Shown piece after piece: positions 5,014 through 60,707 of a stretch of 64,000 bases of DNA. The stretch comes from Diphasiastrum complanatum (lineage: Eukaryota > Streptophyta > Lycopodiopsida > Lycopodiales > Lycopodiaceae). A program made the position numbers and the translations under genes. The DNA lies in contig CM055113.1 in NCBI GenBank assembly GCA_029204225.1, positions 10,254,364 through 10,318,363 of the forward strand, read 5' to 3'. Within the stretch, counting starts at the first letter, position 1, and the number at the start of each line of letters is the position of its first letter. Under the pieces are notes generated by a model. It did no database searches. It was not told the origin of the DNA and saw only the letters and a list, made by a program, of their open reading frames with translations.

Positions 5014-5150
5014 GGATCATCCTTCTTTCTCGTTTCCAAGGGAATATGGACAAAGCATATGCATTCAAATACCCTAAGGTGATCAACCTTAGGTTTCTTC
5101 AAATAAAGTGCTTGATATGGTGACTTTCCTTCAAGTGCAACATGAGGGAG

Positions 5151-5956: not shown

Positions 5957-6272
5957 TTAGACAGAGAAAGAACTTTTGATGATGAAAGCGTTAAGGACCA
6001 TTTCAATAGCACACTCATGATCATTTGCTGTGTAGATGGACTTCTTGGCTCCTTCATAAAGTGTCATGGATGAAAAAGAATGCTTGGAGCTACACATATG
6101 TGAGGAAGCTCCACTGTCGATGTACCACGAACCATCCTTCTTGAAAGGTAATGAAGAAAAACTCGAGACCATAAGAGATCCCTCTCCATCACTTGCATGA
6201 GCATCTTCATTCTCTTCATTGGAAATGTTGGTTTGCTTGAATTGACTCTTCTTATTGAAGCAATTGGTGGCA
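5957..6272 (-). pseudogene. pol: Copia A protease and knuckle tail
   Basis: The minus strand reads NYATNCFNKKSQFKQ at its start, the second half of the gag zinc knuckle. This is followed by an acidic stretch and the aspartic-protease active site SWYIDSGASSHMCSS. The solo LTR lies immediately upstream. The frame is lost near 5,960, before the pre-integrase region. Confidence 0.85.
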
Positions 6273-6277
6273 TAATT

Positions 6278-7010: not shown

Positions 7011-7055
7011 ATAATGCCCCTTCTTGCCACAAAAGAAACACTTGATGTTTTTCTT

Positions 7056-7816: not shown

Positions 7817-8556
7817 AAAGAATGATGGAAATAAAAAAAGATGGATAAAAAAATTGCTTATCTTCTCATTATAGGAACCAATCAAGGGTTAAAAAACCAA
7901 ATCCTATAAGACTAAGCAAAAAACTGTCAGATAGATCTCACTAGCTTGACAATCTCTCTAAAACAAGATTTGAATCATCAAAAAAGATGAAGTATGGCAA
8001 AAGTTATGGTTCTCTGAATTTCACACGTGTGAAATACTCCAAAAATGACAAATTGACTCAAATACAATCTATTGTATGAAACAATTTGCCTAGAACCTAT
8101 AAATTTTGTCTAAATCACATATAGATGAGATTGGTCAACTTCTGGATGATTTTTGTGATCATTCAAGCAAAAAATGACATGTATTCATGATTTTCCACAG
8201 ATCTTGGCGCCCTACATATGACTATTCAAAAGATTATAACTTTTGATTGGCTTATCCAATTGTCATGATTCAAATTGCATCAGATTCTACCATTTCTAGC
8301 TTTCTAGTGGGCCAATTTGCATGAAATTTGGATCTAAGGTGAGAGAGAACCACCAAACTGAAAATGGGCGGATTTCACATGTGCCTGCACCTGAAATTCC
8401 GTACAGTACCTGATCTGGACCATTCAAAGTGGTTTGAAGCTCTAAATCACCAGAAAACTGCAAACTAGCTAGAAAGCAGAATCTAGACAATCCCTAGCTT
8501 GAAATCTGATCAAATTTGCAAACTTTTAGATTAGATTTGCTTGTAAATCTTAGGTA
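7817..8556 (-). other. Untranslated leader of Copia A
   Basis: About 740 bp between the primer site and gag with no coding motif. It contains another CACACGTGTG palindrome near 8,023. Confidence 0.6.
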
Positions 8557-15652: not shown

Positions 15653-18600
15653 CAGGCAGTTGGGACTCTCTTAGTACATCAATCAATCAAGTCATTTCAG
15701 AGACATTGATCACCTAATTTACAACTTGTCATCAACTTAAAGAAAGTACCTTGATCCAACAGAAGAGCTTGCCTTTGTAACTTTGGCACCTGAAAGTCCA
15801 GGAGCCATGGCTATAGGTCTTCTCAATGTGGGATCATGTGTTGTCCATCATTTGACAGTTTCAGAATATTACGAAATGGAGGACGAGGAATTTTGGTACG
15901 ATGCGAAGACCTGAAAGGTTGAAAATGAGTCTTGTTGTGAGCTTTGAGAAGATGGAGTCCTATAATAACTTTAGAAGCTTGTTCAATTGGAAATCATGAT
16001 AAGCTTTACATTTCAGCGAAACTACAGCTATTTTCTTTGATGATTATACTACTATGTCAAGGTCCAAGTAAAGGCATACCGCATTTCTGCGCCTTTAGAC
16101 ATTCGATTATCTGACATGCATGGAACTAATTGTTCACATGATGTCATCAAAGAGACATCAGTGTCAGTTTCCTGAGAAAGACCTGAGAGTTCACTTGATT
16201 TATCGTCAAGGTCTCCTCGCACATCCCACATTTGACAACTACTTTGTAGACCTTCTATTGATACATTGGAATCGTTTACCTTTGTCATGTCATAGCTTTC
16301 ATGAGTGACTGAATACTTTCTCTGAGAATGTCCTTGCAACTGTAACGTACACACCTGTTGAGAAGATAATTTTACACGTCTGTAAGAGTACCCAGAAGCA
16401 CTTTTTGATCTTAAATAAACTGGAGTAGTTTGTGTTTGTGAAGAGTTAGCTAGGTTGGGAGCATTGTAATGAATGTCAATGTTCGGTACATCATTATCAT
16501 CCCATATCTGGAAATCATCATCTCCTTTAGCATTCGAGCTCGTACGTACTCTATGCTTCCAGTCTTTCAATCCGACTTCCCTATTTAATATAAATTTGCG
16601 TTGCACAGTCCTTTGGGCAAAGTTGTTACAAGTGGTGCTTGCAATAGAGCTTTGAGAATCTATTGACACACTTCTTTTGTGCACGACCCTTGGTAGGCCA
16701 AGCTTATCTTCAGTTTTATTGTTTTCCTCAAATCCAGCTTCTGAAGCATCGTGACAGGTGGTTCCCAAAAATAGAGACCTTTTCTGAGTTTGCCTTGTTG
16801 AATTGCTGACAGCTTCTTGGGCCTGTATGCATGAAACTTAAAACCTCAGAACGGCTGTCTTTCTAGCAAGAATTGTTGATTTGTTTACGTCATCTACAAT
16901 AGACGTTTCTCATATGTATGTACTTAGGACATCAGCTTCAAGAAGCAATACATCTTGGATAAGTTCTTTTAAACTTCAGAAAACTGAAAGTTGCCAAATA
17001 TAAAATTTCACACCTCATCTTGTGCCATCATTTCCAACGGATGTTTAGCATTCCGTGGTGTATTTGCTTCGGAGGTCGATATACGCTGACTTGTTGAAAG
17101 GTTTGAGTCTTTGAGACTTTGTTTTCCCAAAGTTAAAGAATGTGAAGTTCCACTCGTACGCATAACCTTCAGAGTTTGCAGTCTTTCTATTTCAGCATCC
17201 CTCTTTCCAATCTCCAGATCCTTTTTGACCAAAGCCTCTAGCAGAGAAGCTATCTGTTTGCGAAGATATTTCAGAAGGGTGTAAGAAGTGAGAATCTGGC
17301 ACAAAGAAGATCTGTAATTAAGAGTCTGAATGAATACTTTGATCTTCCAATCCTTAAGATCTTCAGCTGAGTTTCAAATATTATGGCACCAGAATGTGCA
17401 TGACAACATCTTTTCATTCCAAATACTACTCGATGGGGTTGGCTGAGTTCGTTGGCTTCACATCCCCGTTTGAGCCTTTTGTTGGAAACCAAGAAGCATT
17501 ATAAATACTAAAAAGAAAGCAGAATTTTTTTTTGAAGAGCATGAGAATTATCAGACTGGTGAACAAGAATCAGCAATCAAAACCCTCATTTGGACTTAAT
17601 GATGTTTGGGTAGTTCAAATTCCAAGTTTTCACTTCAACAGAGTATGTGATGCCTTATGACATTCCTGTCCATCTGAATAGATATTATCCAGCCAGCTTC
17701 TATTGGCTCCTCTATTTATTCTCACGCAATAAGATGCCTTGTTTAGAATAGTCTGTAGTTATTGTTAATCTTCATACACTTCTTAGATCTCTTGCTTCAT
17801 CCCCGTCAGACACCAACTTGGTCGTCACAAAGGCATTGTGGTGATTTGTTATGCAGCATAAAAGATATCTTCCTGGTTCTAATGTCAGGAAAATGCTTGC
17901 ATTCTTGATGCGTTAGCATGTGAAACCACTTCTACAAAAAGTTGACAATTTTCTTTCCGGTGCAAGATTTTGAAAATTCCTTGAAAGCTTTTCAGTGGAA
18001 AAAAAGAGTTGAAATGACCTGCTCTCGTAGCTCTCGAACTTCCCAGCTCTCCTTGTTGGAGCAAGCAGCACCAAGTTCGACAGATGCGACTCTCTCTCCA
18101 AATTTTAACGTACTTAGAGTCTCTCCATATGACTCGCTGTCCTGGCTTATGTGTACAAACATGATAGTTCTAGCTTGCCCACCTACAGAAAGCAAAGGAA
18201 ATGCTTACAGTACTTGTAATCTAAATTAGCAGCTTCAATACCAGAATGTGATAAAGGCTGAATAAGTTTATAAGCAATGAAATGTTGATGGAGCTTTTGT
18301 GTGTAGATTTTACAACGAATGTGATCAAAAAGTCTCTTAGAGATGCACTGCATTATATATTTTAGCTCAACTAGGAAGACAAATCGCACTTTCATGTGTT
18401 GTATGGAATGTATCTGATTCCTATGTGTTTGCTGACCTAAGGAATCTTGAAGTAGCTGAGTTAGCTTGCTGTTTCTGTAGGGTATATGTGCACGTTTTTG
18501 TGCCAAAGCTGCAATGACATCTCCTAGGGATGAAAGGGATTTGTTGATATGCTGAGCTTCTTTGAGCCTCTCTCCCGTGGCCTCTGATTTATCCACCCTT

Positions 18601-21600
18601 TCACTTCCAGCAAGGTCAACAAGGTGAAGACAACTTCGTAGGATGGACCGTGATACCAAATCTGTCCCTTGTATATGCACTGTTAGCACACTGCAAATAC
18701 AGTTAATATGAGAATTATTTTGAGTACGGCTAAGAAGAGGACAACCTTAGAGACATCTGTAGTTAATGAACAGTGAATTAGCTCAAGAGTCAACATGAAT
18801 CATGAAGTTCATGACCAACCACAGAAATGAATGAAATTCCTGAACCAGATAAAGGCAAGTTTCTTATGATTGTACACACGTACACACCTATGAGAACGAC
18901 TGCTATGCTCATTCAAAGCTGTCGCACTAACTGTACGATTTTTCTGGCCTACTTTGATGAGCTCCAAGACATCCTCCGTAGATTTGACAGTTACAAGGTT
19001 TGCATCTGGAACATGGAGACCATTGTGCTGCGAGTTGTTCCGAATCTCAAGAGTATGTAAGTCAAGGCTTTATTAGCTTAACATTTTGCATTGTTAAGAA
19101 CTATTATAGAACAGCTAGTTCTGAGCACAAAGTCAACATTCTACAGACTAGCTTAAGAAAAAAGTTCACCATATTGGTCTCAAAAGGATATTTCTTCTTG
19201 GTACCATCGGTAACAAGAAGGTCCCTTATGTGCTCATTATAAATCTCAATCATTTGAACCCCAACTTCATAATGAATGACATCTTTTCTGCTGTAAGAAG
19301 TTTGAAAAAGATCTTTCAATGACCTGTAGTTGATTCCCCAATCCTCTTTTGAGGTGTTGCAGGGACCAGTCTGTCCAGACGAGCATATCAGACCAGTAAG
19401 AATGAAAATATTGGATTAAGACTGGAAATTTGGAATAACCAGAATTTCATGGAAAGGTCAGGTTGTAATGTCAACGAAAATGTTGTATTGCTGGCTTTTG
19501 CCAAACTTTCAAATATAGATCTCAGATTTGTTGCATGGTATATGTCTTAGAGAAAAGTACAAAAAGTAGCTTCAAAGTGTCATAATACTGACCATAGTAT
19601 ATGTCTTTCCAGAACCTGTCTGCCCATATGCAAAAATGCAAACATTGAAGCCATCTAAGACAGATCGTATTAGCTGCCGAGAATTCAAAAAAATTTCCTC
19701 TGCATTCGCCAATTGTAAGCACAAGTCAGAATAAGGTATCAGTTCATAAAGTGTCCATTACTTTAGTAAAAAAAAGAAATCGACCCATATCTTTTAGACA
19801 TGCCATTACGAAAAACAGCGTGTGCTTCATGTCACTGGAAATAAATGAGATTCATGGATCTTAACTTCTTCAATTCACCTTGAGAGGCTGATGCCGGGTA
19901 CACCTTGTTAAAATTAAACAACTTTTGGCCATCTCTCTCCTGCTTAAAAGGATTTCTGATCAAAATGTCTCCATTTTCTCCTATAAAATCCACAATGCCT
20001 TGCGTTGCACTTTGAAAAGGCCTAACTCGACAATATACTCTGATTTTTCCTGTTACACATGGAAGCGACATTGTTATCATTTCATCCTGCAATTGAAATA
20101 ACATATGCATACCATGTTTAATCTCGTTACTCGACAGGATTGTCAGAAATGTCTTGCTCGATTCGTTGTAAAAGTGATCTTTTAAATATTCATCTCTACC
20201 TTTGAGCTCTTCAACTTCGTTGTACAATGCACGATTCTCTGCTTGCATTTGATAATATCCGGCGGCTGCTCCAGTCAACCTTTCAAGCTTAGATTCTGCA
20301 GTCATGATCATAGGTTTTGAGGGAAAAGCTTGATACTCTATACACGTTGTTTGCTATTCAGTGAAAGCCACTCATTTATTACTTCAATATTTCAAGTAGG
20401 ACAGGTGTGGAAGTAAGCTAAGCGACTAGCAAATGGGATGCCTTCAATGTAAGATTTGTCAAACTGGTTATTTGGTACTTACGAAGGGCTTCCATCTCCT
20501 CCTGCCTGCCCAGTTTCATATTCAAAACATCTTGTCTTATGGCATCAAGGATTGCTCTTATATTCTGTGCACACAAACAAATGCAAAACAATAAAATATT
20601 AGCTGTCTGAAATGTATGAATTTAAAGAGAACTGTAACGATCGGAAAATACACACTAGGATATCACCTTGAATGCTGGAATATGTAGGAAAATACGATCT
20701 TGAAACTTCGTATTCTCTTGTTTCAAGTTCCTAAGCTCAGTTGCCATAGTTGCTTGAATCTCCTGCCCATTTTTTACAGATACTTCTAGCTCCAAAATCA
20801 GCTCTTTGATTTTCATCTTTGACTCCAATTCCAGCTTTCTGTGAAACTCTAATTCATGCTTTGTTTCCTTTGCTTCCCTAATACTATATTCCAGATCATT
20901 TTTCAGCTTTTCGACTTCCAGTTGTTGCTCGTCCCTATCCTTTAATAGCTTTTCTACAGATTCTTCATTCCTTTTCTTCTCTTTTTCAATTTCTGCCTTT
21001 TCAATCTGCACATATGTAGATTTAAGTTGAAAGTCATAGCCTTCATGTTACGTCCAGTAACAGCTGCACTTAAAATTTCAAAATCTCAAGGAGATGGAGA
21101 GCTACACAGACATTAAATATTTGGTTAGTAGAGGTCTCTCTGAGAATTATATTTTGAGATTATTAAGTTTCAAATCTTAGGATTCCACAAGCAAATATCG
21201 AATGAAGACTTATGAATCAGAAAGTGTCAAAGTTAAAGAAGTGATAACTTTCACGCTTTGCAAAGCCACGAAATATCGACAAACCTGCCTCAAACATACA
21301 CCAACTGCTTAAATTAATAAGCTGAGTTTGAAGCAAATTGCAAAGTTATAATTACCTTGAAAGGTGCGCATAGAGCAGGAACACTCGTTTAATAACATAA
21401 GTGAACAAATTTGAGATCAAAGTAATGAGACAAGTGATCAAACTGCACCTACTTAAAGGCAACAAGTGTAGACTATCTTTTGATTTCAAGGTTATTTTTT
21501 TACACTCTAATAAAGCTTCGGGACACTAGATATTCCTGGGAAGAACGTCTTAGTATGTTCAGAGAAGCAAATTAGCTCCGTCAAAGCATATTTACAATGT

Positions 21601-24486
21601 CTCGGGCCATAAGCATATAGACTTGTAAGAAACTCCTTACCTTTACAAGCTGAAGATGAGCCGTGTTCAGCTGCAATCAGATAGACCAAGAACTCTCTCA
21701 GCATTCTACAAACTTCAAAGTGTAGTTAACAGCAGGATTCACTGATATTTAGCAACTTTGTCTTCCAGAAACATAAAAAGTATCTTTGCGATCATCCAGA
21801 TATATTACTCTGACAAAATCTGACTGGTTACAGAGACCAGAAGATTCCAATTTTTTTTTGAAAAGTTCATCGTGTATATGTACCTTCATCTCTTCCCCTG
21901 AGCCCATTGCCAAGGCCTCCAATGCCTTTGACCTCGATACAAGTTTATCTTCTCTCCGTAACAGCTCCTTTGAGGCAATCCTCAACTGCAGTAAAATTTC
22001 TGTATCGGGATCAAGAGTTCTGCTATACAGTTTTTAGACATGAGTTGCGCAACAACTATTGCACCACGGAATCATAAATCGCCTCTTTTATTTCAAGAGG
22101 AAGGCTTCTTTATCAGGCTTTGACAACCCAGAATTCACTTGAGCCTCACATTGTAGTCTACTGGCCATCAAACATGTTATGCATTTCTCATCACTTATAA
22201 GCTCTGATTCCTCAAAAATATTTATGGTACCGATCACATCCAGGTGCATAGGCATTAAATTGAAGCAAGATAAGTTAAGTGCATCAATAATACAGTGAAA
22301 CTGTGAACCTTTTTCAATTGTTCTCCCTGCAGTATCAGTCGATGTTCAAACTCGTCCGTGGCATTCTTCAGAATAAATTCCACCAGCTGCTCCAGGGATG
22401 CAAATGAAGAATAACTTTAACTCTTTAGATAGCTCACATATACGGCATTCTAGATTAGATAGGACGTCCAGAGCAAACATGTACAGCAGCAAGAAGACTG
22501 GGCTTGCTTTGAATGTTTTATGTAAGTACTATGGAGACACTAATTATATATAACATTTGGAACTTAGCAGTTGAGGCAATTTACCACTGGCAACTCTTCG
22601 AATCTTCTTCCATCAAGGAGTGTTCTCACAAGGTTTGGAAAAGAATGTGAATCTGCCTTCTGCATGCAGGACCATTAACTTTTTATACCAGTTAAATTTG
22701 TGTCTGTACATGGTAGCCACTGTTTTCTTATCCTTCCAAAATCAAACAATTCATTTCCTCTTTTTGCAGGTGAATTGCACATGGCTAATCAACAACTACC
22801 GTAAATCTGCACGAGTTACAAACTTGAAATTTATATATAGATTACGCTAATCTACATTCTCTTTCTTGAAAGCAGAAAACTTTGAAAGCGTCCAGCTTTT
22901 GAGCTTTACTTGTAAGGCTTCAAGAAACTTCTGACCAGTTTGATGAATCCAGGTTGAATTTGAATCTGTCACCAACATAAAGAGGTCATCGGATCGAAAC
23001 CCGATATTCTCAATGGTCAGCTTACACTACGAGGGCTATTTTCTTTCTCCTTGAAAGTAACATGAATAAGAAACAATGGGATCGTTTGTACTTTTGAACA
23101 AAAGATCTGCGATCAAGAATAACGTTGTGCGAGGTTCGAGTATAAGAGAACAGCAGACGTGCAACAAGTCTAGCTTATCGTAAACAATAGTACTTGCAAT
23201 AGCAAAAACTTCTTCAGCCCTTGTATTTGGTACGGAAAAACAGAGAAACATTAGATTAATGGGATAGCCAACAAGCCAGCCTCTGGCACTAGGCGAAGAA
23301 AGTTGATGTGCAGCAGGTCTCTTTTCAGACGGTAATCTTTTCATTGAGGCAATAGCAGGAACTTCTCTAATCCTTGTATTTTTCTCAAAAAATAACATTT
23401 AAATTCGATTCCACAAGTCAGCCCCCAGCATTACACGTACCTGATAAACTTAAACCACAATTCTCCGAGTGGATCGAACTTTGATTTATTTCCTTTATCT
23501 GAGTTTTGTCATTCCTGGTTGACATGTCATCGTTGAGATCGTCTCCTTTGCACTCCAGCTTACAGTCACAATCAGAGGTATCTGAATTGATGGATGAGTA
23601 AAGATCAGGAAAATTCCAGGATTTCTCCGATTGGTGTTTAACGTTGGAAGAAAGTCCAACGAATACTTTGGGGGAAGCCTTGGGCCCATACTTTGACGTG
23701 CTTCTATATTTCCACAATCCCATAGCTCCACTCTCCTTCCACTCAAAATAGGACTTTAATGCCAATATACAGTCAACAACTTTTTTCATAGAACCTGCTA
23801 CCAAACTGCTCTGAAGGAACGAAAGAAAAGTCTAGAGTTAATTTTGATATATTATAATAACATATACAGATTATGCAGATCAAAGAGCCAAGATGAACGT
23901 GCCTGCTCCAAATCAGAAGCTTCGAAAGAAGGCAACTTTAGTTCTTCCACAGCGACCAAAAAGTTTCTGACATTCTCGAAATATTGGTAGACAAAATGTG
24001 CGCCATCCCGAGGGCTAAGTGCAAGAGGATTCTCGACGATCTGTTGAAGCAAACGTCAGCTTCTGTAAAAACATCGCAAAACAAGAGCAAGCAAGGAAAG
24101 GAAATGCACACGAACAGCAAATGCAGAAATATTGACAAAGTGAACAGGATATAGAAGACGAGATGTACTGCACCTTTGGAATGGCCCCCGGGTGAATTCT
24201 GTTCATGAGGTTGCATAAAATCAGACCATTTCTGAGGAATAATCGAAGCTCTTCTTCACTAGGCTCGTCGGATATGTCCAAGTACCCCACTATGTTTTGC
24301 AGCCAGGAGGCTGCTTGAAAGCGTCTGTTAGCTGCAGTAGTAAAACAGCCCGGTAAGCAGACTTTAGCTAATCTAATTGAGATCCAGGTGCAAGTCAATA
24401 AATCTATTCTGAAAAGCTCTATCTAATTGAGATTCACATATCAATCAGCAAATCTGTTTGTCTGTCTGTCGCCCCCCCTCTTCCCC

Positions 24487-31894: not shown

Positions 31895-31897
31895 ATC

Positions 31898-31925
31898 ATT
31901 AGAGGAGTTCTCAATATCAAAAAGA
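31898..31925 (+). repeat. Left terminal inverted repeat
   Basis: 28 bases beginning ATTAGAGGAGTTCTCAATAT; perfect complement of 39,309-39,336. One further flanking C/G pair would extend it to 29. Confidence 0.95.
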
Positions 31926-32422
31926 CCCTTTAAGGAATGCCATGTAGGATATACAAAAATATCAAAATAAATAAAACAATATTGTTTTTTTGCTTGCCCA
32001 CACCACTCCCAAGGCCTCCCCAACTCCCAATGATCTAACCACAGTGTCTATAGTCACAGTTAAGAACTGTTAACAGTTCGCAGTATAACTTGACTAAATT
32101 CAAAAATATTCCCTCCATTGGTTACGAAAAGGGCAATATTTTCACTGGATCTAGAATATGACCGCCATCCCCAAATTCGAATCAGGAAAAATTGCAAAAT
32201 GTTTACATATGCATGCCTTCCACGAGAATGGAAATATGAGCGTTAACTACCTATTGGATTGAAAAAATGAGCGGCATTTCCAAATTTGAATCAAGCATAC
32301 AAGCATGGAGATTGGATTGATCGTACATAGTATATAATATAATCAAAGATGAGTATTTTGTTTTGCTTCATAGAATCTGGTCATAGTACTTTGATGCAAC
32401 TGATTACTCTATTATTTTTTTG
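31926..32422. other. Transposon left subterminal region
   Basis: About 500 bp, AT-rich, with no coding motif. It should hold the promoter of the transposase gene and transposase-binding sites, but none can be singled out. Confidence 0.5.
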
Positions 32423-35069
32423 ATGATGACATTATATCATCTACATGTGGATATCCCTACTGATTTGGCACCTTTGCAGAGAAGAGGAGGCAAAGGAGTT
32501 CAAATATCTGTTGAAGATCGTTCTCGTTACAGGGCATAAGGAAAGAAAAACGTGGATTTGTGGACAGATGGAACATTATATCCACAAGATCCAAGCACTT
32601 TGACACATCCCACATTCTCTTCAATAACTCATTTAGTTACATGGATATGCAATGGGCATAGTGAATTACTAGGATATTGTGAAAGATTGCAAAACCATGG
32701 AAAACAACTTTATATGAATAAAGTTCACTTTTTAGAAGGTGAGTTAATTCGGATATCCTCTTATTGTCAGAATAGAGATTGTCATCTCCAAAAGATGTTA
32801 GAAGAAAATGAACAACTTCAAAAAAATAATGAATCATTATAGAAGATAACAATCAATATCAAATCAAAACTAGAGCAAATGCAATCAGTCTTACAGTCTA
32901 TTCGTATTGAAAACTTACAATTACTGAAGGATGTGGATTTGGTAAAAGAAGAAGGCTGAAAGTAAGAAGCGAAAGCGACAAAGTTGCAAGGATATTCAAA
33001 CGCTTTCAAAATGAGGTTATCGAAATAGAAGGACCCATGCATTCAAGTAAGCATATTCTAAATTTTGTAAGTTTTTCAATGACATTTGGATTTAATTTCA
33101 GCTATGGTGATATTTTGTTAACTATCTATTTTTTTTGCAGATCTGCATTAGTAGCTTTTCGGAATATTAAAGACAATGCTTCACTAGGAATGTCATTGGA
33201 CACAATATTGACTTGCAAATCCACTGAGTGTATCATGATGAACAATAGGATTTCAAATGTAAAGTGTAAAATAGCAGAGTCTTTGATGGTGGACATTCAA
33301 AATATTTTAGATAAGACTATAGATCAAGGTGCTTGTGATTTTGCAGGTATTAGTAGGGAAGCATATGCAACAATATTTAAACTAATTAGAGAAGCTTTTA
33401 AGCAAGTTCAAATTAGAAAAGTCCCAATCCCTAGGAAATATCACTTGAAGAAAGAGAGGGATACATTAAACATAGGTATGCATAAGATCACTGGAACTCC
33501 ATTTCATATTGAGGAGGTGTATGAAACTGATGGAAGATCGATATTCTATAATTCATCAAACAATTTATTTGTTGATCTAAATTACTTGCTGAGATACATT
33601 GTCACATTCTATGATATAACCTATGAAAAGGTGAATGGCAAAATAATCATAGTACTTAAGTTAGATGAGTCAGAATTGTGAAAGGATAGAAGATGGAAAG
33701 GGTTAGTATAACTCTCATGAATGGTGCTCTATCACAAACAGAGAACCAAGAAGATTTCAAATTCAGTGTCCAGTCAGAAAATGATATATGGTGGTTGGCA
33801 GCATTTCAAGTAACTAGCCTCATTATTACATTACATTCATTGAATAGTATTAATACATTGTAAACTAAGTATGATTAATTCTTTGGATAGGTGCTGAAAG
33901 AGGATCATGATATATTATCATGGATATTCTCAAGGACATCTTATCCTAGGATCATCAAGGACCATATGGATGGAGGACTTCTCAATGTTCCAGGAGTTGG
34001 AGACTTCAATGTTGAATGGCACTTAGCAGGTGATTTGAAAACATTGAAATGTATGTATAATGTCTCTCACAATGATACATCAAAACACCCTTGTTTGTAC
34101 TGCATGAAAATGGCAAAAGATGTAACTAGGAGTACAGGAATTACTAGAGAATATGCAGATCCAAAATGGAAGCCTGTGCTGCCTATCCCCTTAAAAAATG
34201 TGCATGTTTGCACTCTTCATGCAGAAGTTAGATTAATAGAAAAGATCATTTATCTTCATATAGTTTTTGCTTGGAATACTAAGCCAACATCATTAGCAAA
34301 GGAGGTTATCTCTCGATTAGAAGATGTTTTATCAAAAGCAGGACTCCATAAAGGACATGTCAAAATTCAAAAAGATGAAAAGCTTTCAGAAAAGAATGGG
34401 AACATGCCAAGTAAGCCAAGCATAGGAGGATCAAAAACATGTCGTTTTCTATCAAATCATACTGGTAAGGCTTCTAATATTCAACACTCAGTCTGGACAG
34501 ATATTATTGCTGCCACTCAGGACTTCAAGAAAGATGGCAAAACCAGAGTACTAAAAGTTGATGTATGGAAAAAGCTTGATAGTATGATTGCTATTTTAAA
34601 AAGAAAAATACTCTGATATTGATAAGAAAGCTGTCCAAAGGACTTGTGTTGAGTTTGTTAATGCAATATCAAAAGCATGGGGAGAAGATCACATCACTCA
34701 TTACATGGTTAGTATAAAATTTTCAAAATGCTTTCAAATTTTCATATATATTTAGATCCAAACATAAGACTAACATTATGATTTTGACATATGCAGCACA
34801 TACTAAGAGATCATACAGTATTTTTTGCAAATACATATAGAAACTTGAGTGTATGGTCATGACAAGGGATGGAGAAGTCACATTGGCAAGCACGAGCAGC
34901 ATTTCATCAAAATACACAACATGGAAGAACCAATGAAAAATGAAACTACATTTGTCAATTGTTTCAGTGGTTCTACCGCAGAGTTCAGTTGAATTTGAAA
35001 GTCATGCTAAGAATTGTACATATATTTGTTTTGTTTGATATTGTATATAGTAATTGCAGGCACGTGTGA
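32423..35069 (+). pseudogene. DDE-type transposase, decayed, spliced
   Basis: A proposed start at 32,423 opens a frame with CDLHVDIP-like text, a coiled-coil-like stretch (LQKMLEENEQLQKNNESL) and a basic patch KKAESKKRKRQ. GT-AG introns join THAFK to SALVAFRNIKD (33,136), WWLAAFQ to VLKEDHD (33,810/33,891) and HITHYM to HILRDHT (near 34,708/34,797). Candidate catalytic acids are the Asp in VLKLDESEL, the Asp in WHLAGDLKTLKCMY, followed by a zinc-type HPCLYC, and the Glu in QGMEKSHWQ. The pattern GD-K-L...CxxC...QQGxEK resembles a family I recall from uncharacterised cnidarian and fungal proteins; that link is from memory. At least five in-frame stops and two frameshifts inactivate it. Confidence 0.65.
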
Positions 35070-35280
35070 GATGACACCTGCACACATGTGAAATGACACC
35101 TGAACACGTGTCGCGTGTTCATTCGATTGCTCATAAACATGTGTCGCTCTCGCATTCGATCATACAAATCCCACACGTGTAATGTGACAGGGTGACATGT
35201 GTCGCTCTCGCATTTGTCCATACAACTCTCACACGTGTGACAGAACGTTCTTTTGCACGTGCGAACCCTGATATAAAATC
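35060..35280 (+). promoter_or_regulatory. CACGTG-rich putative promoter of the H3-Ulp1 gene
   Basis: Eight CACGTG or ACATGT cores occur in about 200 bp, including a 58-bp unit present twice in tandem (35,137-35,194 and 35,195-35,252) that contains GTGTCGCTCTCGCATT. A TATAAAA lies at 35,272-35,278, about 315 bases before the ATG. CACGTG is the G-box core bound by plant bZIP and bHLH factors; actual use is inferred. Confidence 0.5.
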
Positions 35281-35591
35281 ACAAATTTTGATGAATTTTT
35301 TTCACTTTTTTTTTTTGCTCCTCATATCGCATTTGTGCGCGCCCTTCACAATCAAAATTCCTCCTACTGCCTTCCATGCGCACAGGTCCGATACGTCTGC
35401 CTACGTGTCACCCCATATCGCACTTGTGCGTCTTTCCTCAAATCTAATAATTCTCTCTGATATTAGGCTCGCATAGGTCCGATATACCGTACATTCTGTC
35501 TGTACATAGCGGTCCTCTGCGAGTTCTTTATCATCTCTCCCTTCTCATCCTAACCTTCACGCACAAGTCCGCTATCACATAGTTCACGCCC

Positions 35592-37344
35592 ATGGATAGG
35601 AGAAAGCAGACAAGGAGGGACTTCTTCTCTCCTGGCTCATCCTCATCTCCTGCGGTTGCCATCACACCACCTGCTAGACCTAGAATGCGCAACCGCAGCA
35701 GGTGGCTCTCTGAGATACGCAAGTATCAGAGGTCAACAACTCTGTTGATCCCAAGAGCTCCATTCTACCGTGCTGTCCGGAACATAACAAGAAATGATCT
35801 CGAACAGCACGTTAGATTCACACCGAGTGCTCTTCAGTGCCTTCAAGAGGCAACTAAAGATTATATTATTCTTTTTTTTGAGGATTCTTTTTTGCTTGCC
35901 ATCCATTCCAAGAGGGTTACCATAATGCCCAAGAATTTTCAGCTTTTGATGAGAATGAGGGATAGGTACTATAGGTTACATGTATCTCAGCCTGCTGCTC
36001 CTAAACCAACTCCTGTAGGCAGGACTAATCTTCCTACGAAGCATCCTAGGAAGCAAACAACCCCCAAGCGTGCTCCTAAGAAAGTGAAGCCTAACCCTTC
36101 AGATTCTCTAAAGCCTATCCCAGAATCCATTGTAGATAATGCTATTCTTGATAATGCTGCAAATATAGCTACCTCTGTTTTGGATACTACACATCCACTT
36201 CTCCTCCTCCTCCTGCCAATTTTTATACATATATAGATTCGGATGATTATCTTAAATTTGAGAAAGACATATCGGATGCTATAGGTACAATTGGTACTCC
36301 TTTTGTTTTAGAGTATATGAACTTGATTTATTTATTAGTTTTAGAGTTCTAGATTGCCTGGATCTCAAAGACGGACGAGCTTCTATTAGTGATCCTGTGA
36401 TAGAGTCCGGGCTTACACTCTTGCAATATGACATTGCAAGAAATTCATCAAATGAGTTGCTGGTGCAGAGTAACTTTCTGCTTCAGGCCTTCAAGGAGAA
36501 CAATGACACATTGTCACAGTGTCTGACAAGTGGATCCACACCAGCAACAAAGTATCTGCTCATACCTTATCATACGAAGTAAGTTATATTAAATGCTTCT
36601 TGCTGTTTTATGCATAAACATTGGCATTGTCAATGAAAATAGTTCTCAGAATTGCAACTAAAGAAATTTCAATCTTATTTTGCAGTGACCACTGGAGTTT
36701 AAACCTGATCTCTATTAAGAGATCTGTAAATAATACTATTAAATATTTTTGTGTCAAGATGAATTCGGTGAGAAATACGCATAAGGATGTAGATATATAC
36801 ATTCCATATCTAAGTAAATATATTCCTACAGACGTTCCCCATTCCGTAAACTGGCAGATCGTCAGCTTGGAGGTAAACTCTGTCTTTCTTAATAGCATTT
36901 TGAAATCAGTATTCTAATGAAATATTTTCAATCTAATTCATTCTGTTTCATAATTGATTTCTTGTGTGCTGGATTATTTTGCAGTCACCCCAGCAAAATG
37001 ATTCATTCAGCTGTGGGTGGTACACATTATACAATGCCAAGTTGTTTTTTGAGTGGTTCATCCTTCAACAAGATGTTGATATTTTTAAGGTAATAAATTC
37101 TGTTTATTCTTATTTTGGAATCATGATTAGTTTTCTATTCTGGTGATGTTATTGGCCATTACTAATACATGAATGTTCTATTTTGCAGTTTACACTTCAT
37201 GAGTACACATCAAGCCAGGTGTACAAATTTAGACAAGAAATTATCCTGAGTATACTGGCTAGGACAAGGCTTCAGTCTCCCGTTATTGATGATGGTGCAA
37301 AGGATGATGTAGTTGTACTAAATCAAGATCAGAAAAAAATATAG
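35592..37344 (+). CDS. Histone H3/CENH3-like domain joined to Ulp1/C48-like protease
   Basis: The start ATG at 35,592 gives an N-tail (MDRRKQTRR...) recalling the H3 tail, then a histone fold at residues 38-125: EIRKYQRSTTLLIPRAPF, VRFTPSALQCLQEA and AIHSKRVTIMPKNFQLL. LLIP-APF, TPSAL and a loop 1 one residue longer than canonical H3 favour a CENH3 origin. A Lys/Pro-rich linker follows. A CTC-repeat frameshift near 36,195 breaks the frame, which resumes as TYIDSDDYLKFEKDI. Exons then run 36,347-36,578, 36,686-36,872, 36,985-37,089 and 37,189-37,344 with GT-AG borders and consistent phases. They encode a C48-type fold: DLKDGRASISDPVIE, NDHWSLNLI (His), KMNSV (Asn where Asp is usual), SPQQND (Gln) and SCGWYTL (Cys). 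About 455 aa in total. One gene is the simplest reading; two adjacent genes cannot be excluded. Confidence 0.85.
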
Positions 37345-37780
37345 ATAGCATAGAACAAAAATACATGTATAGACTTCATAGAAAAATATACATTGATATA
37401 TCAAATGCTGCTCCAGTTTATGAATTTAGGAGCACAAAATACATGTACAGATGCCCAACTTGGGCTTTCATTTACTGAATGAAAGAGTGTATACACAGAT
37501 TTTTACTAAAGTTTATTTGAAACTATTGTTCTCCCACAATGGTGATTGTTGTAGGTAGATCTTTGCAGCACGTTATCAGCTCCAGTCTTTTTTGCATATG
37601 TGACATGGCAAATATTAGTGAATGTGCAATTGTAAATGGTGACATTTTCTATTATTTTGTTCTATTTTGAAATGGCAATAAACATAAAGTAGTTACGAGT
37701 CTTCCGTTGATGATAAATCTGAAATATGTTGGTAGATTGGTTTGTAATAGCATGAGCTCTGTTCTGATAAAATCAAGCTT
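37345..37780. other. Convergent 3' intergenic region of the transposon
   Basis: 436 bp between the stop of the H3-Ulp1 gene and the stop of the minus-strand gene. No coding motif; both polyadenylation regions should lie here. Confidence 0.6.
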
Positions 37781-38895
37781 TCAGTGCTCTTCCACCTCAA
37801 CCATAGTCAAATATTCCTCATTATAGATAATTCTTATCTCCATTCGGTTTGTGTGACCATTTAGTTCAAAGTCTTGATCCAGTGGTAGCCATGTACCTTC
37901 AATTCTCTTGTATCTCTGGTAGCTAAATGTGAGACTGAGCATTTGCTTTTCGATATGATAACGAAAGATCATTGAGGACTTTTTAATCCTGCATTCTATG
38001 TCATTATTTGTTTTACTATCCCAACTTTGATCCATGAGATCTGACAAAGTCTCATCTGATAAATCCTTGCAAACAAATAAAGTTGGTGTCCTACGGACAC
38101 TAGCACTCGAGAAAAAATCAACAAATGTATGCAATGAGATAAACCAACTTAGGTGAACAATTTTTGAGCATGTGCTTATCTTCATAGCATTTTTAATATC
38201 AATGAGTAGCTTGCATCTCAAGGATTCAGAAACAATGCTATCAGGAGTAGGCCACTCATCACTTTGAAAACTAGGCAATGGAATTGCTTCGAGCTTGCCA
38301 AAACCTCCATCTGTTTGTGGCGTATATAAAGATTCATAAAAATAGATACCACAATCTACAAGTTCCTTTGGACTTCTTCCTTTGTATTGTAACTTTCCAA
38401 CATCAGAGTGAATCACGTCTAATAATCCTGCAAGTGATTGTGCGGGCTCCCATTCACTTATGCATGATGGATATAAATCTGAAAGAAAAAAACAATGTTG
38501 AAGCATTTAAATCATAATTTGAAGAGCATCAATAAAGAAAATCACCTATGATTGCTGTAGAGTGCATATGTTTTGATATACTTACAATTACATTTTTGAT
38601 GATCATGAGGATTGATATCATGTACTTTGATTTCTGAATGCATATATACGTGTTGCACTAAGACTTCTGATATCGATTGACCTCCTGGAGTAGTCTTAAA
38701 CTCCAAAATTTTTGCTTTCCAATAAAATTTGTAAGTCATTTTTGCTCTTTTCTTTTGTTGAAAATTTTCCTTTGATGATGGATGCAGCAATACCCATGAG
38801 TTCTTCGTATATTTTGTTGGCTTCTAGTTATCAGCTTCATCTTTCTCATTGTAAAGAATCATAGAATCAATTGTAGATCTGGGTCTGCTCGCCAT
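37781..38895 (-). CDS. Unknown transposon gene, possible BAH-like N-terminus
   Basis: Two exons, 38,895-38,592 and 38,478-37,781, joined by a GT-AG intron in consistent phase, encode 333 residues. An in-frame TAG at 38,826-38,824 (codon 24) would stop translation unless the true start is later, for instance at the ATG in KRAKMTYKFYW. The first half (KNSWVLLHPS, FYWKAKILEFKTTPGG, VLVQHVYMHSEI, DLYPSCISEWEPAQSLAG) has the strand pattern of a BAH domain, a chromatin-binding module; this is a weak call by eye. The C-terminal half (LPLPSFQSDEW, FVDFFSS, DLMDQSWDSK) is unrecognised. It is transcribed toward the H3-Ulp1 gene and starts about 440 bp inside the right TIR. Confidence 0.6.
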
Positions 38896-39308
38896 TGCTA
38901 TTTTCAAAGCTCGAGCGCCCTGATATGTTACTTAATTTTAATTTTTATATCACATTTAATCTTATGTGAATGCCAACATAGTCACAGTTACTGCGTATAC
39001 CATATTTTATGTAACTGTACATACTATATTTCTATAACTGTAACTAGTATAGTTAGAAAATTTCATTATACTAACCAGCATAGTAAAGTAAATTTAACTT
39101 GAGATATTGACGTTGGGCAGATTAGCACGTGTCGGGCAAGAAGAAGAAACCAATGGGATACGTCCATGCTGCCCAGACACAAATTTCAAAGTTTTCTATA
39201 TTGCATTTTTATTTTTTAGTTAATTTGAACTACGTTACGTAGATTTCAAATCTGTGCATTTTGATTGGGCCTGGTGACGGTCGAAACTAAAGAAAAAAAA
39301 TAAAAGTA
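38896..39308. other. Transposon right subterminal region
   Basis: About 410 bp, AT-rich, no coding motif. It contains one CACGTG (near 39,127), like the internal promoter, and presumably drives the minus-strand gene. Confidence 0.5.
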
Positions 39309-39336
39309 TCTTTTTGATATTGAGAACTCCTCTAAT
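39309..39336 (-). repeat. Right terminal inverted repeat
   Basis: 28 bases, perfect complement of 31,898-31,925. Confidence 0.95.
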
Positions 39337-40170
39337 GGCTACAATCAAGGGGCAACATGGACTCGTATCGTCCATTCCATCGCAAACTGAGTTGTGGCAT
39401 AAGAGGCTTGGTCACTTGAACTTGGAAAGCCTTAGTTTGATGAGAAAATTGGAGATGGTAACAGGATTGCCTACTATAGAAGACCACTTGAAATTGATGT
39501 GCGAATCATGTGTATATGGGAAGCAACATCGAGAGAAGTTCAATAAAAGTGGTGTTGCAAGAGCAAAGAACATCCTGGATTTAATCCACACATATTTATG
39601 CGGGTCTATGAGGACCATGTCCTTAGGTAAAGCCTTATCTTTCCTGACCTTTATTGATGATATGTCACGTAAGACGTGGATCTACTTCTTGAAGAAGAGA
39701 TCAGATGCATTTGACAATCTCAAGAGCTTCAAAGCATTGGTCGAAAATCAGACAGGTATGAAGATCAAAGTCCTAAGATCAGATAGTGGAGGTGAGTACA
39801 AGTCCAATGACTTCAATGATCTTTGTGATCAGTGTGGGATTAAAAGACAATTTATGCAAGCTCATACTCCTGCTCTCAATGGTTTAGCTAAGCACAAAAA
39901 TCGTACGATTGTGGAAAGTGCCAAATCTATGCTAGTTGAGATGAAACTACCAAAAGATTTTGGTCAGAAGCATGCAGTACGGTAGTCTATCTTCAAAATA
40001 GAAGTCCTACCATTGCCATACCAAAGATAACACCTGAGGAAGCATTCACGAAGAAGAAGCCAAAGGTGAACCACTTGCAAATCTTTGGATGTAAGGCCTT
40101 TGTACACATTCCAAAGAAAGAGAGACGTAAACTTGATGTGAAAGCTATCAAGTGAATATTCCTAAGATAT
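39337..40170 (+). pseudogene. pol: Copia C pre-integrase and integrase
   Basis: Reads ELWHKRLGHLNLESLSLM, then a C-x2-C zinc half (CESCVYGKQ), LTFIDDMSRKTWIYFL and VLRSDSGGEYKSNDF. The catalytic Glu region reads ALNGLAKHKNRT, where a functional element has GLAERKNRT-type sequence, so the active-site Glu has become Lys. The frame shifts near 39,980 and meets a stop near 40,155. It continues the polyprotein cut at 31,897. Confidence 0.9.
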
Positions 40171-55178: not shown

Positions 55179-56752
55179 TTCTCCATGAGAGAATGCACAT
55201 CAAGGACATGGAGATCCACATCCATAGTACATAGTACAAGTGGGGCCACCTTTGCCAATATGGTCTTGTCATAACCATTGACATCGATCAATTGCACGCA
55301 CTGCCACGAGGCAATAACTTTGGGCTACCCTGCATCAATAGTGCATTGGCACATGGCACCCAAACACCTATAGCCCTAGACCAACTTCTCGTCCCGTATA
55401 ACAAGACCGTCACCTCAAGTAACATGTTGCATGGCCTTAGAAATATATAATATTGTAGCTTCCGAGTGATTGAGAAATTCATTCACTAGCATTTTCCAAT
55501 TCCTTACCCAAATTATCACTAATTTCTCTCATATTTTTTCAAATTTTATTCTCCACCATGCTTAAGCGTTCTTTCCATGTGGACCATTCACCCCAGGCAC
55601 AACATCCCCATTTTTTGGCTGAATAGGTTCACCCACTTTACCCAACACCTAATTTTTGAGTTTTGTGTAAACTCATGCTTCTGATTTACGTCAGCTTCTC
55701 GAGTAAACGTGTGTGGGTGAGTCCTCTCACTAACTAAATCCACCTCATACTCGAATACCAAGTTCACAATCCAACAAGACAAAGAACTCGCCTGCAATCA
55801 AGTGCATCCAAAACAAAGAAGAAAGAAAAGCATTCCAAAAAAGCTCATGAATTGTACCAATTCAAGAAGCCTAATTGCAAGCTTAATAATCATTAGGGCT
55901 TTGTGCTTAGCCACCCACTAGCCCTACCAATTTACTAATCTAGAGAAAGAAAGAAAGAAAATGTGCACAATTAATTATTGCAAAATTAATTGCTTTTGTT
56001 TTCACAACTTTCATAAACATTTGCAAATTGGTGATACATGTACAACATTTGTCGTGTTTGTATTATTTAATTTTATCACAAAGGAGGGATGACTTTTTCT
56101 CCATCCCTCCTATTCGATTTTGAGAAATAATTCATCCCTCTTATTGAAACGAGGGGTGGGTAAATATTTCTCATCATTACATAAGGATGAACGAGTTTTT
56201 ACTTCTCATTTTGCATAGGAGACACAAGTTTTTACTCATTTTGCATTTGTAAAGGAGTTGTTTAGTCGCACCTCATTAAAATAAGAGTTTTTATGTCCCT
56301 CATGTGCATAGGAAAGGTGAGTTTTTACCCGCCTTTCATTTGCAAAGGATTTGGTAAAACTTCATTCTTTAGCATAGGAGAGACATGTTAAAGAACTTGC
56401 TTTTCAATGAAATAGCAAATACAAGTCGCTAACAACTCATCTTTTGCAAAGGGAGGGCGAGATATTTATCTATTCCTCATTAGCATAAGAGAGGAAGGCA
56501 ACTTCCTACTCGCATTTTGTACACGAGAAACATATTTTTGCTTGCATATTCGTTCGGTGACGATATGTACATTTTTGGGGAGTATTTTGGGAGAGGATAT
56601 GGTAACCTCGGGCTTGACTCTGTATAACCTTTAGATGTTTTTACAATTCTTGAATTCAGTGTAAAATAATTTATATGCTTTTAAAAGGTTCTCATCAACA
56701 CAACAACTGAATGCAACACATTCATTTGGGCATGGTGACTGGATTCTGGCCC
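55179..56752 (-). repeat. Inverted repeat, right arm (1.57 kb)
   Basis: Reverse complement of 47,967-49,527. It ends exactly where Copia E coding sequence begins (56,753). Confidence 0.9.
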
Positions 56753-58537
56753 GATGCTATCAAAGCCAGACCAGAAACCAGCTCAGCACAAGGAACAGTC
56801 GAATCTGCAGACAAAGAAGAAGCTTTTCTGCAGATACTGCAAACGAAACAACCACGAAATTAAAGACTGCCGAATACTTCAAACGAAGAACAACAACAAA
56901 GGGCAATCGAATCAAGTGGCAAATGCAGCTACAGAAGCTCCACAGCCCCTTCAAGAAGCGGATCATGATGCCTTCATGACCAACCATCAAAGAGCATATG
57001 GCGACAGTTCATGGTTCCTGGACTCCGGAGCCACTCAACACATGACTAGCCTGATTGGCTATTTCGAGTCCTATACACCTTACAGTACCCAGAAATTCGT
57101 TCATCTTGGCGACAATAGCACACAAGCTATTAAAGGTGAAGGAACTGTAAGATTATGCTTTGCAAATGATCAATCTAAGCTACTCTCCAAAGTTCTGTAT
57201 GTACCTAAGATATCCACGAATTTGCTCTCTGTAAGCAGAATTACAGATCTAGGACACAGAGTAAAATTCAAATGTGATCAATGTAAAGTAGTTGATAGGA
57301 CAGACAAGATTCTAGCACTCGGAAAGAGACATGAATACTTGTATAAATTAAGTCATTGCTTTTCTGCCTCTAGTCAGGCTCTCAGTACTTCAATTCAATC
57401 AAATAAAGGTTTACTTTGGCATTATAGACTTGGTCATTTAAATTATGTTGTTGTACAACGAATGTCTAGACAATCTCTATTGTTCTTGATCTCGACTATC
57501 ATCACGAAACAATCGAACTACCTGTCTGTCAAGACTATCTAGTTGGAAAACAGACTAGGAAGCCATTTAAGTCAAGCCATCAGCATGTTGTTAGAGGATT
57601 GCTAGATGTTGTACATTCAGATATTTGTGGCCCGATAAAAAATCCTTCGCTGAAGGAAGCCAAGTTTTATATAACCTTTATTGACGAATTTTTGAGAAGA
57701 ACGATGGTGTACTTCATAAAGAAGAAATCAAAAGCCTTCAACTGCTTTAGAATCTTCAAGGAGCGTGCAGAAAAGGAGACTGGAAGGATGATCAAGGCCC
57801 TAAGGTCAGATAACGGTGGAATATATCTCTGTCGAGTTCAAGGAGTACTACCAAAGCCAAGGCATTGAGCAACAATTCATCACTCCTTACAGTCCTCAGT
57901 CTAAAGACCATCCTGATCGGATATACTTCGTCTGATAACACCTACAAGCTGTACGATCCTGATACCCAACAAATCTTGTATAGCCGGGATACAGTCTTTA
58001 TCGAGGATCAGTTCGTCGACCTCAAAAGCAAGGATATTGCTCAAGAAGAACCTTTATCATCTGCCATTGACACGACAATCCAAGCTTCTGGCTCAGGAAT
58101 GTCTATCGTCGACCCACTTCGAGACAACGAATTAGACGAAGATGTTGCTCCTACCCAACAATATATCCCAAGAGCGGATCATCAGTCAAATCCTCCCAGA
58201 AGATCAAGCCGAGTGAGCACACAGCCCACAAGGTATAATCATGAGTCTGTCTGTCTTTTAATGCAGGAACCGACGACAGTCGAAGAGGCACTTAGCCAAC
58301 CAGACTCTGATCTCTAGAGAGAAGCTATGGACAGAGAGTATTCCTCTCTGATCAAGAATCAAACATGGTCATTAGTCGAAGCTCCTATTGGCTGCAATAT
58401 TATTGATTGCAAATGGATCTTTAAGATCAAATGTAATGCCAACGGAGCGATTGATCAAAGGAAGGCTAGACTGGTAGCACGAGGATTCACCCAGATCTGG
58501 AATGTCGACTACAGTGAGACTTTTAGTCCAGTGATTC
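56753..58537 (+). pseudogene. Copia E gag-protease-integrase-RT fragment
   Basis: Opens within gag at the knuckle FCRYCKRNNHEIKDCRI, then protease SSWFLDSGATQHMTSL, LLSVSRITDLGH and pre-integrase LLWHYRLGHLNYVV. The integrase has VVHSDICGPIK, FIDEF and ALRSDNGG. It then jumps from TPYSPQ directly to a C-terminal segment (IGYTSSDNTYKLYDP), so the part with the catalytic Glu is deleted. The pre-RT linker and RT start (IIDCKWIFKIKCNANGAID, YSETFSPV) follow before truncation at 58,537. No LTRs are attached. Confidence 0.88.
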
Positions 58538-59152: not shown

Positions 59153-60565
59153 TCAAAGTATAATCCCTCTGGTTTGTCTCAATTCCAAGGGGAATGGCCT
59201 CATACCAACTTCTGAGGGAGTTGGTTCTTTATCTATACGGCTTCCAATCAAGGGTACAGGTTCTTTTATTCCAACAATAGCTATTAAGGATGATCCGTCT
59301 CTAGGTTCAGTGTCTTTGGAGTCTACCAGCCACTTACTTGCTCCCTCACACTCTTCATTAGAGATATCTATTCGTACCCTATCTTGGGTTACCCTCTGCC
59401 ACTTCTTCTCTATGAGTGTTTCTGCCAAGTTTATCGGGGGCTTGTCTCCTTCCGTTCTAGTCACATCACCCTGAGAGGTCACTCTACAATCTATCTGTGG
59501 TTGACTCCAAGTTTGGTAGGTTCTAAGTAGTTCATCATCCACGACATCATGGCTTATCGATTCTTGCCTTCGATTTCTAGTATTGAAATCATTCTCTTGT
59601 GACCAACATCCATCCTCTGAATGGCCACGCTCTCTATAATATCTGAAAAAGGCACTGGGATATGCAGGTGAAACACCTCCTACAAAAGTGGGACTATTAA
59701 GTGGTGATTTACCACGTTGTATTGGCTTGGTGTCCCCTTTCAATGGTACTGTATGATTTACGGTTTTCATCATGGCTAAGATGGTTTGGCATTCATTTGT
59801 AGCAAGAAAGACTTCTTCTATGGTTCTGGCTCTACACACTGTTTCTTCAAATGATGTCACCCCAGATTGGCGTACTTCTAGCTGGATAGCTGGTTGTAGG
59901 CCCCTCAAGAAAAACGTGAGTACCAATTGAGATGATACCTCTGTCGCTGGCCCTATGTTCAATTGGCAAACGAGCTCCTTGAGTCGTTTAACATATAGGC
60001 GTACTGATTCTCTTGGTTCTTGTTGTATCGTGGTCAAAGCGAACATCAAGCTATCAACATTGTATTTGAGTCCAAACTCTGCTATAAACAATTGTAACAG
60101 TTTTTTCAAGGTGGTAATGGAAGCTTTGGGTAAATTATAGTACCATCGTCTAGCTTCCCCTACTAGAGTTGTGGAAAACAACATCATTCTATGCATTGGA
60201 TTTATGACAGTGTTGGTGAACATCAACGTGTCAAATTCTTGGATATGTCTATGGGCATCTTCATCAGTGCTTCTGTGAAACTGAGGTAGGGAGCCTACTA
60301 TTCTTGGTGTCCTTCTGATATCATCAGGAATAACTATTGGCTGAGTGACTCTTCGTGTCAATGGTACGATAGATAGAGGGCTAGGTGTTTGCACAGTCAG
60401 TTGTCGATGGTCATCTTCAGCTAAACTTTCTACTTCCGTGTTCTGGTTAGTGTGATCCTCGAGGCCCATGTCTAGCTCAACTTTACTTTCTACCATCGGT
60501 CCCTGTTTTGATAGTATGTCATCATCCATCATCTCTTCGTCACTTTTTGCTTCATCATCCGCCAC
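59153..60565 (-). CDS. gag: Ty3/Gypsy-type gag (470 aa)
   Basis: A long intact frame. The N-terminus is acidic (DDEAKSDEEMMDDD). The retrotransposon-gag domain spans about residues 90-250, with FHRSTDEDAHRHIQEFDTLM, VGEARRWYYNLPKASITT and QEPRESVRLYVKRLKELV, the typical WY-L and RxxFxxLKQ-like pattern of capsid proteins. Near residue 310 a degenerate knuckle reads RYYRERGHSEDGCW, which lacks the first cysteine. No frame break occurs within it. The protein would form virus-like particles if expressed, but pol is absent from the window. The ATG near 60,565 is chosen as the first in frame; upstream acidic frames may belong to the same protein. Confidence 0.8.
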   Translation of the reverse strand: MADDEAKSDEEMMDDDILSKQGPMVESKVELDMGLEDHTNQNTEVESLAEDDHRQLTVQTPSPLSIVPLTRRVTQPIVIPDDIRRTPRIVGSLPQFHRSTDEDAHRHIQEFDTLMFTNTVINPMHRMMLFSTTLVGEARRWYYNLPKASITTLKKLLQLFIAEFGLKYNVDSLMFALTTIQQEPRESVRLYVKRLKELVCQLNIGPATEVSSQLVLTFFLRGLQPAIQLEVRQSGVTSFEETVCRARTIEEVFLATNECQTILAMMKTVNHTVPLKGDTKPIQRGKSPLNSPTFVGGVSPAYPSAFFRYYRERGHSEDGCWSQENDFNTRNRRQESISHDVVDDELLRTYQTWSQPQIDCRVTSQGDVTRTEGDKPPINLAETLIEKKWQRVTQDRVRIDISNEECEGASKWLVDSKDTEPRDGSSLIAIVGIKEPVPLIGSRIDKEPTPSEVGMRPFPLELRQTRGIIL

Positions 60566-60707
60566 CTCATTGGGCTTTGGTTCAATTCCATTTTCAAATA
60601 TGGTCTCCCACTCAGATTCACCACTATAACTCTCAACTGGATTAGATATCTCACCTTTATTGTCATATCGAGTTGGACACTCTCCTAATTCTATTTATGA
60701 TTGGATG

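Follow-up and report, generated by a model that had tools for sequence, protein, structure and literature searches.

Evidence for a histone H3-type fold and a Ulp1-type protease domain in one gene of a clubmoss DNA transposon

It has been reported that a hAT transposon in the fungus Pseudocercospora fijiensis and its relatives captured a histone H3 sequence and carried it to hundreds of copies, all of which except the original were inactivated by RIP (PMC6710886). The locus described here, in the clubmoss Diphasiastrum complanatum (Lycopodiaceae), resembles that system in that an H3 sequence has been amplified by a DNA transposon (PMC6710886), but the clubmoss histone is diverged, is fused to a protease domain, was present before three families diverged, and is under selection. 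In plants, the Kaonashi (KIU) genes with a Ulp1 domain are described as members of the VANC group of Vandal MULEs, and it is the family to which a VANC gene itself belongs that VANC makes hypomethylated (PMC13317346). The likeness to our locus is a Ulp1 domain in a plant DNA transposon that is tied to escape from DNA methylation (PMC13317346). The difference is that those transposons are MULEs, whereas the clubmoss element gave no match to a MULE transposase in Pfam and the predicted fold of a homologue of its transposase is RAG1-like. The review of the KIU genes gives the function of their Ulp1 domain as unknown, and the word "histone" is absent from its main text (PMC13317346). KIU is the closest precedent for the function, and the fungal hAT H3 the closest for the capture. 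In the open-access literature searched, no report was found of a histone-Ulp1 fusion in a transposon.

The window, by which we mean the whole 64-kb stretch of DNA that was analysed, contains a DNA transposon with the following features.

31,897-39,337 (no strand assigned): whole DNA transposon, an internally deleted copy of 7,441 bp, delimited by 35-nt inverted repeats and by ends common to other copies
31,897-31,931 (+): left terminal inverted repeat, beginning CATTAGAGGAGTTCTCAATATC
32,470-34,930 (+): transposase gene, broken in the window copy, recognised from reading frames, 49 homologues and the predicted fold of a homologue
34,988-35,056 (no strand assigned): internal-deletion junction, where other copies have about 1.9 kb extra, including the minus-strand gene B
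35,592-35,693 (+): histone tail, 34 aa, beginning MDRRKQTRRDFF, in register with H3 MARTKQTARKST
35,694-35,978 (+): histone H3-type fold, alpha-N to alpha-3, from Pfam and PDB matches
35,979-36,351 (+): Lys/Pro-rich linker, with a frameshift near 36,185-36,213 in the window copy; where copies are intact, it is read in a single open frame with histone and C48
36,352-36,578 (+): first part of the C48 domain, in an exon common with the histone
36,686-36,872 (+): C48 exon with the catalytic His (NDHW) and an Asn (KMNS)
36,985-37,089 (+): C48 exon with the Gln (PQQ) and Cys (SCGW)
37,189-37,344 (+): C-terminal C48 exon and stop
37,781-38,823 (-): gene D, no known domain, as ORFs 38,823-38,542 and 38,506-37,781, with diverged relatives near other copies
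39,303-39,337 (-): right terminal inverted repeat, 94% complementary to the left repeat over 35 nt

The preliminary description had already placed the histone-protease gene inside a transposon, and this setting stands, although the element proves larger than the stretch given there. Its termini, CATTAG..CTAATG, are of the 5'-CA..TG-3' type. The copies compared were 10-kb stretches around 20 other copies, together with six shifted stretches of some of these; L009/L010, and perhaps L014/L017, look near-duplicate or allelic, so that the independent copies are fewer than those counted. Complete copies are about 9.3 kb long (L030, L031) and hold the remains of four genes, namely the transposase (+), gene B (-), histone-C48 (+) and gene D (-), a layout read from the frames in L020, L028 and L010, the last of which is without its left end. 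Neither gene B nor gene D matched a Pfam family above cut-off. As diverged relatives of gene B are present in L034/L023 and of gene D in L014/L017, both genes are seemingly parts of a conserved four-gene set. We note that L024:8500-10000 carries a diverged transposase, with 69-70% nucleotide identity to that of the window, in the opposite orientation to a window-type copy.

Both halves of the fusion were recognised by profile search, in agreement with the earlier alignment by eye of the histone from alpha-N to alpha-3 and with the C48 fold, with His, Gln and Cys, assigned downstream. In the frame 35,592-36,233, residues 21-123 match the Pfam Histone family (PF00125; 98.5 bits, E 4.2e-28, cut-off 26.4), and residues 17-124 of the same frame match histone H3 chains in the PDB (E ~1e-22). 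An AlphaFold model of the histone ORF is poor, with a mean pLDDT of 46.9; it has helices at the alpha-N to alpha-3 places, where block means are about 55-76. The positions of H3-H3' and DNA contact are retained in 17-21 of 21 copies. R2, K4, Q5, T6 and R8 of H3 are retained in the tail, with Lys at the K4 place, and the K9 place is Asp in 20 of 21 copies; in two other families of this genome the K9 place is A (TE2) or P followed by a Lys (TE4). The four C48 exons, when joined, match Peptidase_C48 (PF02902; 40.2 bits, E 4.3e-10, cut-off 20.7), and exon 36,985-37,089 alone falls just under that cut-off (19.2 bits, E 1.2e-3). In the PDB the joined exons match a Ulp1-like SUMO protease (E 1.1e-3), the ULP1 protease (1.5e-3) and SENP2 (0.053), and the three catalytic residues line up with those of Ulp1. 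Across copies the His is present in 17/17, the first Gln in 14/17 (the other three having stops) and the Cys in 16/18. The acid position, Asp in Ulp1, reads Asn in KMNS in 17/17 copies, at a point where the alignment is loose, and the protease activity of the C48 domain is therefore uncertain.

Histone and C48 lie in one frame in intact copies but not in the window copy itself, in which the frameshift near 36,185-36,213 separates them. The frame of the window copy changes again before 36,351, so that further frame damage in the linker is likely. Among 22 copies (the 20 fetched, the window and L043+L045), histone and first C48 exon lie in a common frame in 18, as against about a third expected by chance, and therefore no intron is needed between them. 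The histone-to-C48 span in these 18 copies takes seven lengths, from 837 to 909 nt, all of them multiples of three; the four out-of-frame spans, that of the window copy among them, are 883, 883, 890 and 899 nt. The interval between histone and C48 is free of stops in 12/22 copies, and a stop or a frame change occurs there in 10/22. A splice joining the two parts at 36,150-36,350 was ruled out, as intact copies read through in one open frame. The sequences thus support a single gene, inside a DNA transposon, to which both the H3-type fold and the C48 domain of Ulp1 type belong.

In the genome of 1.74 Gb there were 7,507 first-look candidates, and 150 places, the window included, were scored, with at least 78% identity. 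Every one of contigs C1-C24 carries scored copies, as do small contigs, and several copies sit inside copia elements; by our count by eye the matched histone part is free of stops at 29 of the 150 places. Given the E-values and this copy number, chance or biased composition was ruled out as the source of the matches in the fusion. The stops in decayed copies are mostly TAG, as would be expected from loss of CAG by deamination at methylated CHG sites, which suggests that the element may be under heavy CHG methylation. Diverged families carry related sequences. In TE2 (L034, about 2,100-3,120), histone and linker are 44% identical to those of the window, or 52% over 75 codons, and behind the histone, at 2,928-3,116, there is a relative of the first C48 exon (score 72; none of 2,000 shuffles reaches this, the maximum being 44), which a tblastn search at E 1e-3 had missed. 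In TE4 (L042+L046) the histone is diverged and an SCGW exon is present (tblastn E 1.2e-9), with a weak match to the first C48 exon (score 39, against a shuffle maximum of 37). In TE3 (L040, L041, L044), which is H3-like, no C48 match was found within 1.2 kb downstream. The C48 parts in TE2 and TE4 indicate that the fusion, in the order histone-linker-C48, arose before at least three diverged families separated. A relative of the fusion in other species was found neither by an exact-word protein search nor among 120 listed of 3,279 histone matches; the former listed nine proteins, for which the precomputed Pfam assignments are to histone and CENP-T models and include no C48.

Selection was assessed by comparing the window copy with the diverged subfamily L043/L045, over a distance that is unsaturated, as pN/pS with Fisher p. 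The histone core has 17.5 non-synonymous changes over 221 sites (pN 0.079) and 23.5 synonymous changes over 61 (pS 0.387), a ratio of 0.20 (p 3.3e-8). The three C48 exons gave 0.38, 0.24 and 0.20 (p 0.04, 0.003 and 0.03), the histone tail 0.54 (p 0.29) and an intron, taken as the control, 0.67 (p 0.5); the linker is also below one (0.48, p 0.01). In 21 close copies the three C48 exons have median dN/dS values of 0.30, 0.51 and 0.20, the histone core 0.46, the tail 0.60 and the linker 1.39. Restricting the count to variants common to at least three close copies put the C48 exons at 0.14, 0.42, 0.04 and 0.59, the linker at 1.04, gene B at 0.48 and 0.39, and gene D, in its longer part, at 0.37. 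By the same test the histone core has 0.35, which beside shifted-frame controls of 0.68 and 0.44 is weak as a sign of recent selection, so that it is the subfamily comparison that carries the case for the histone. For the transposase, the second part has a ratio of 1.51 (11 N, 2 S), with no constraint, and a shifted frame gave 0.05, from which we conclude that counts as small as these are unreliable; the first part of the transposase and the shorter part of gene D have too few synonymous changes to be scored. Between subfamilies, purifying selection acts on the histone part and probably on the C48 part as well.

The transposase exons, placed roughly and by eye, are 32,470-33,046, 33,141-33,809, 33,891-34,616, with a frameshift near its end, and a last one from 34,797 to about 34,930. 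They contain the motifs D (LKLDES), D (AGDLKTL), C(2)C (HPCLYC), H(4)H and E (GMEKSHW). By sequence, the transposase gave nothing above cut-off or convincing against Pfam and the PDB, and no Pfam transposase family was matched. It has 49 homologues, with relatives in other species, and the predicted fold of one homologue matches RAG1 and Transib; the relatives of this transposase are thus predicted to have a DDE fold of RAG1/Transib type. CMCT transposons are described as similar in their DDE fold of RAG1 type, in their C(2)C and H(3-4)H motifs and in their 5'-CA..TG-3' termini.

The clubmoss element was mobile in the past, and its manner of insertion sets it apart from CMCT transposons. A flanking direct repeat of at least 2 bp was found at none of the six two-ended copies, a single shared base being present in two. 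The window copy lies in a copia retrotransposon, which it splits into two parts, with a copia-like ORF before 31,890 on the left, judged by eye, and GAG-pre-integrase and integrase domains (Pfam) after 39,300 on the right. The copia frame continues over the joined flanks in three of the six two-ended copies (L016, L030 and L029/L020); at the junction of the window copy a stop ends the copia frame that comes from upstream, and no such forward frame is present in L022 or L031. The joined flanks of L029/L020 align with a copia copy of the window at about 5,300-6,000 (minus strand; 77% over 287 columns), and L016, read as a joined frame, aligns elsewhere in the same copia (37% over 71 residues, E 4e-12), the junction being free of gaps in both. 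An empty-site partner for the junctions of L030 and of the window copy was not found within the window. CMCT transposons, by contrast, are described as making target site duplications of 2-5 bp, which compares with 0/6 in the clubmoss element and its two junctions that are gap-free against unoccupied copia, and a 5-bp duplication is reported for Transib and RAG-like transposons (PMC7204232), against none here. Spy is reported to insert without target site duplication, as this element does, but with a PIF/ISL2EU-type transposase and a preference for AAATTT (PMC4482050) that were not seen in the clubmoss element, AAATTT being formed at none of the six two-ended junctions.

As the histone part is kept by selection, the element may supply a histone of its own with which it acts on the chromatin of the host. 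It is established that H3 carrying a C-terminal fusion can enter chromatin, that chromatin proteins are among the targets of SUMO proteases, and that plants silence transposons by way of H3K9me2 and CHG methylation. The explanation that we regard as best, tentatively and as somewhat short of probable, is that the element encodes a selected histone-C48 protein that works as an anti-silencing factor on chromatin; the inferred step taken alone, that this protein is an anti-silencing factor, seems to us possible rather than probable. The histone fold would enter nucleosomes, or bind H4 and its chaperones, and would anchor the protease on chromatin, ideally at the element's own copies, where the C48 domain would strip SUMO, or a similar modifier, from silencing proteins. 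A tail with the H3K4 register and Asp at the K9 place would make such nucleosomes unable to receive H3K9 methylation, from which plant CHG DNA methylation is fed. K9 is also missing from the CENH3 tails of mosses and liverworts (four were compared, which start MAR-K), and its loss may therefore be inherited rather than adaptive. The fullest form of this proposal, that of a selfish RAG1/Transib-like element, inserting without target site duplication, whose own K9-less H3 variant with a C-terminal deSUMOylase makes its copies unsilenceable by the host, is rather unlikely to hold as a whole.

The histone fold might instead act outside nucleosomes and serve transposition itself, as a DNA-bending dimer of the H3-H4 or CENP-T/S kind that helps to assemble the synaptic complex or tethers the transposase to chromatin, with the C48 domain controlling SUMO on the transposase. 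The presence together of transposase and histone-C48 sequences in the six two-ended copies, and secondary matches of the histone part to CENP-S and CENP-T models that are weak and below their cut-offs, would fit such a role, which is unlikely on balance, as the retained H3-H3' positions and H3 tail register would be needless for a simple DNA-bending dimer.

The preliminary description had read the histone as a captured CENH3 that would target centromeric or replicating chromatin or disturb CENH3 loading. The window histone shares LLIPR-PF with moss CENH3, and loop 1 of the window family has 26 residues, as in Physcomitrium CENH3, against 25 in H3; further likenesses to plant CENH3 are the K at position 4 and the lack of K at 9. 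However, loop 1 has the H3 length in the other families TE2, TE3 and TE4, and at the end of loop 1 and start of alpha-2 there is a Phe in 21/21 copies, where moss CENH3, like that of rice and Arabidopsis, has Trp; among the element families Trp occurs there in TE4 only. The C48 fusion and the thousands of first-look candidates are also unlike plant CENH3. In a 26-row tree with long-branch warnings, and with reference rows that include Arabidopsis and rice CENH3, human CENP-A and canonical H3, TE1 (the window family), TE2 and TE4 lie outside both H3 and CENH3, and TE3 joins the H3 rows; one origin for all element rows (p-AU 0.52), a grouping with CENH3 (0.29) and a grouping with H3 (0.24) are none of them rejected. 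With land-plant references and eight rows left out, the element rows form one group (84/86, 88/87, not starred) outside H3, where H3 is three near-identical rows only, and a grouping with H3 is again not rejected (p-AU 0.24 and 0.105). A host CENH3 was not found, the five non-element candidates fetched from 150 listed being canonical-H3-like exons or pseudogene-like pieces. A plain CENH3 label was not kept, given the Phe for Trp, the H3-length loop 1 in TE2-TE4 and trees that reject neither origin; the motif and the extra residue stand, and an origin of the histone from CENH3 is possible. A captured CENH3 acting at centromeres or on its own loading we consider improbable; the spread of copies over each of C1-C24, several in copia, gives no sign of a centromere focus as judged by contig.

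Another reading is that the fusion acts by dominant interference, soaking up H4, ASF1 or HIRA and so loosening chromatin generally, such that the element is expressed. The tetramer and DNA positions retained in the histone fold are consistent with this, but it leaves the conserved C48 domain unexplained and is quite improbable. That a host histone was copied into the transposon and amplified without use, as known for H3 in fungal hAT elements (PMC6710886) and in keeping with the many broken copies (in 10/22 a stop or a change of frame separates histone from C48), is very improbable, being disfavoured by a pN/pS of 0.20 over an unsaturated distance, by a frame kept in 18/22 copies despite length changes, and by the same fusion in three diverged families.

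The remainder of the window holds exons of a host kinesin gene at 16,052-24,422 (-), with kinesin motor and microtubule-binding matches and a calponin-homology match just under cut-off, which is probably a KIN-14, and copia-type elements (RVT_2; GAG-pre-integrase) and Ty3-type gag at 3,131-7,888 (-), 56,739-58,317 (+) and 59,153-60,694 (-). Elsewhere in the D. complanatum genome, a search for H3-like sequences gave 6,076 first-look candidates, of which 150 were scored, and 13 full-length canonical H3 matches. TE3 is a second dispersed H3-like family (FLIPRAPFVRLVKEIVDEF...) that is partly annotated as genes (O6H91_13G100400, 05G054700 and 07G108800; P0067-P0069), in which no C48 domain was seen.

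A genome in which first-look candidates for H3-like sequences number in the thousands, against 13 full-length canonical H3 matches, calls for caution in the annotation of lycophyte histones. A plant transposon with a predicted RAG1 fold and clean insertions without duplication may inform work on the variation in strand transfer among RAG-type recombinases. If the histone-C48 protein is indeed an anti-silencing factor, this would be a transposon that deploys a dedicated, selected histone variant together with a SUMO protease against host chromatin, and the arms race over transposon silencing would become testable with one protein.
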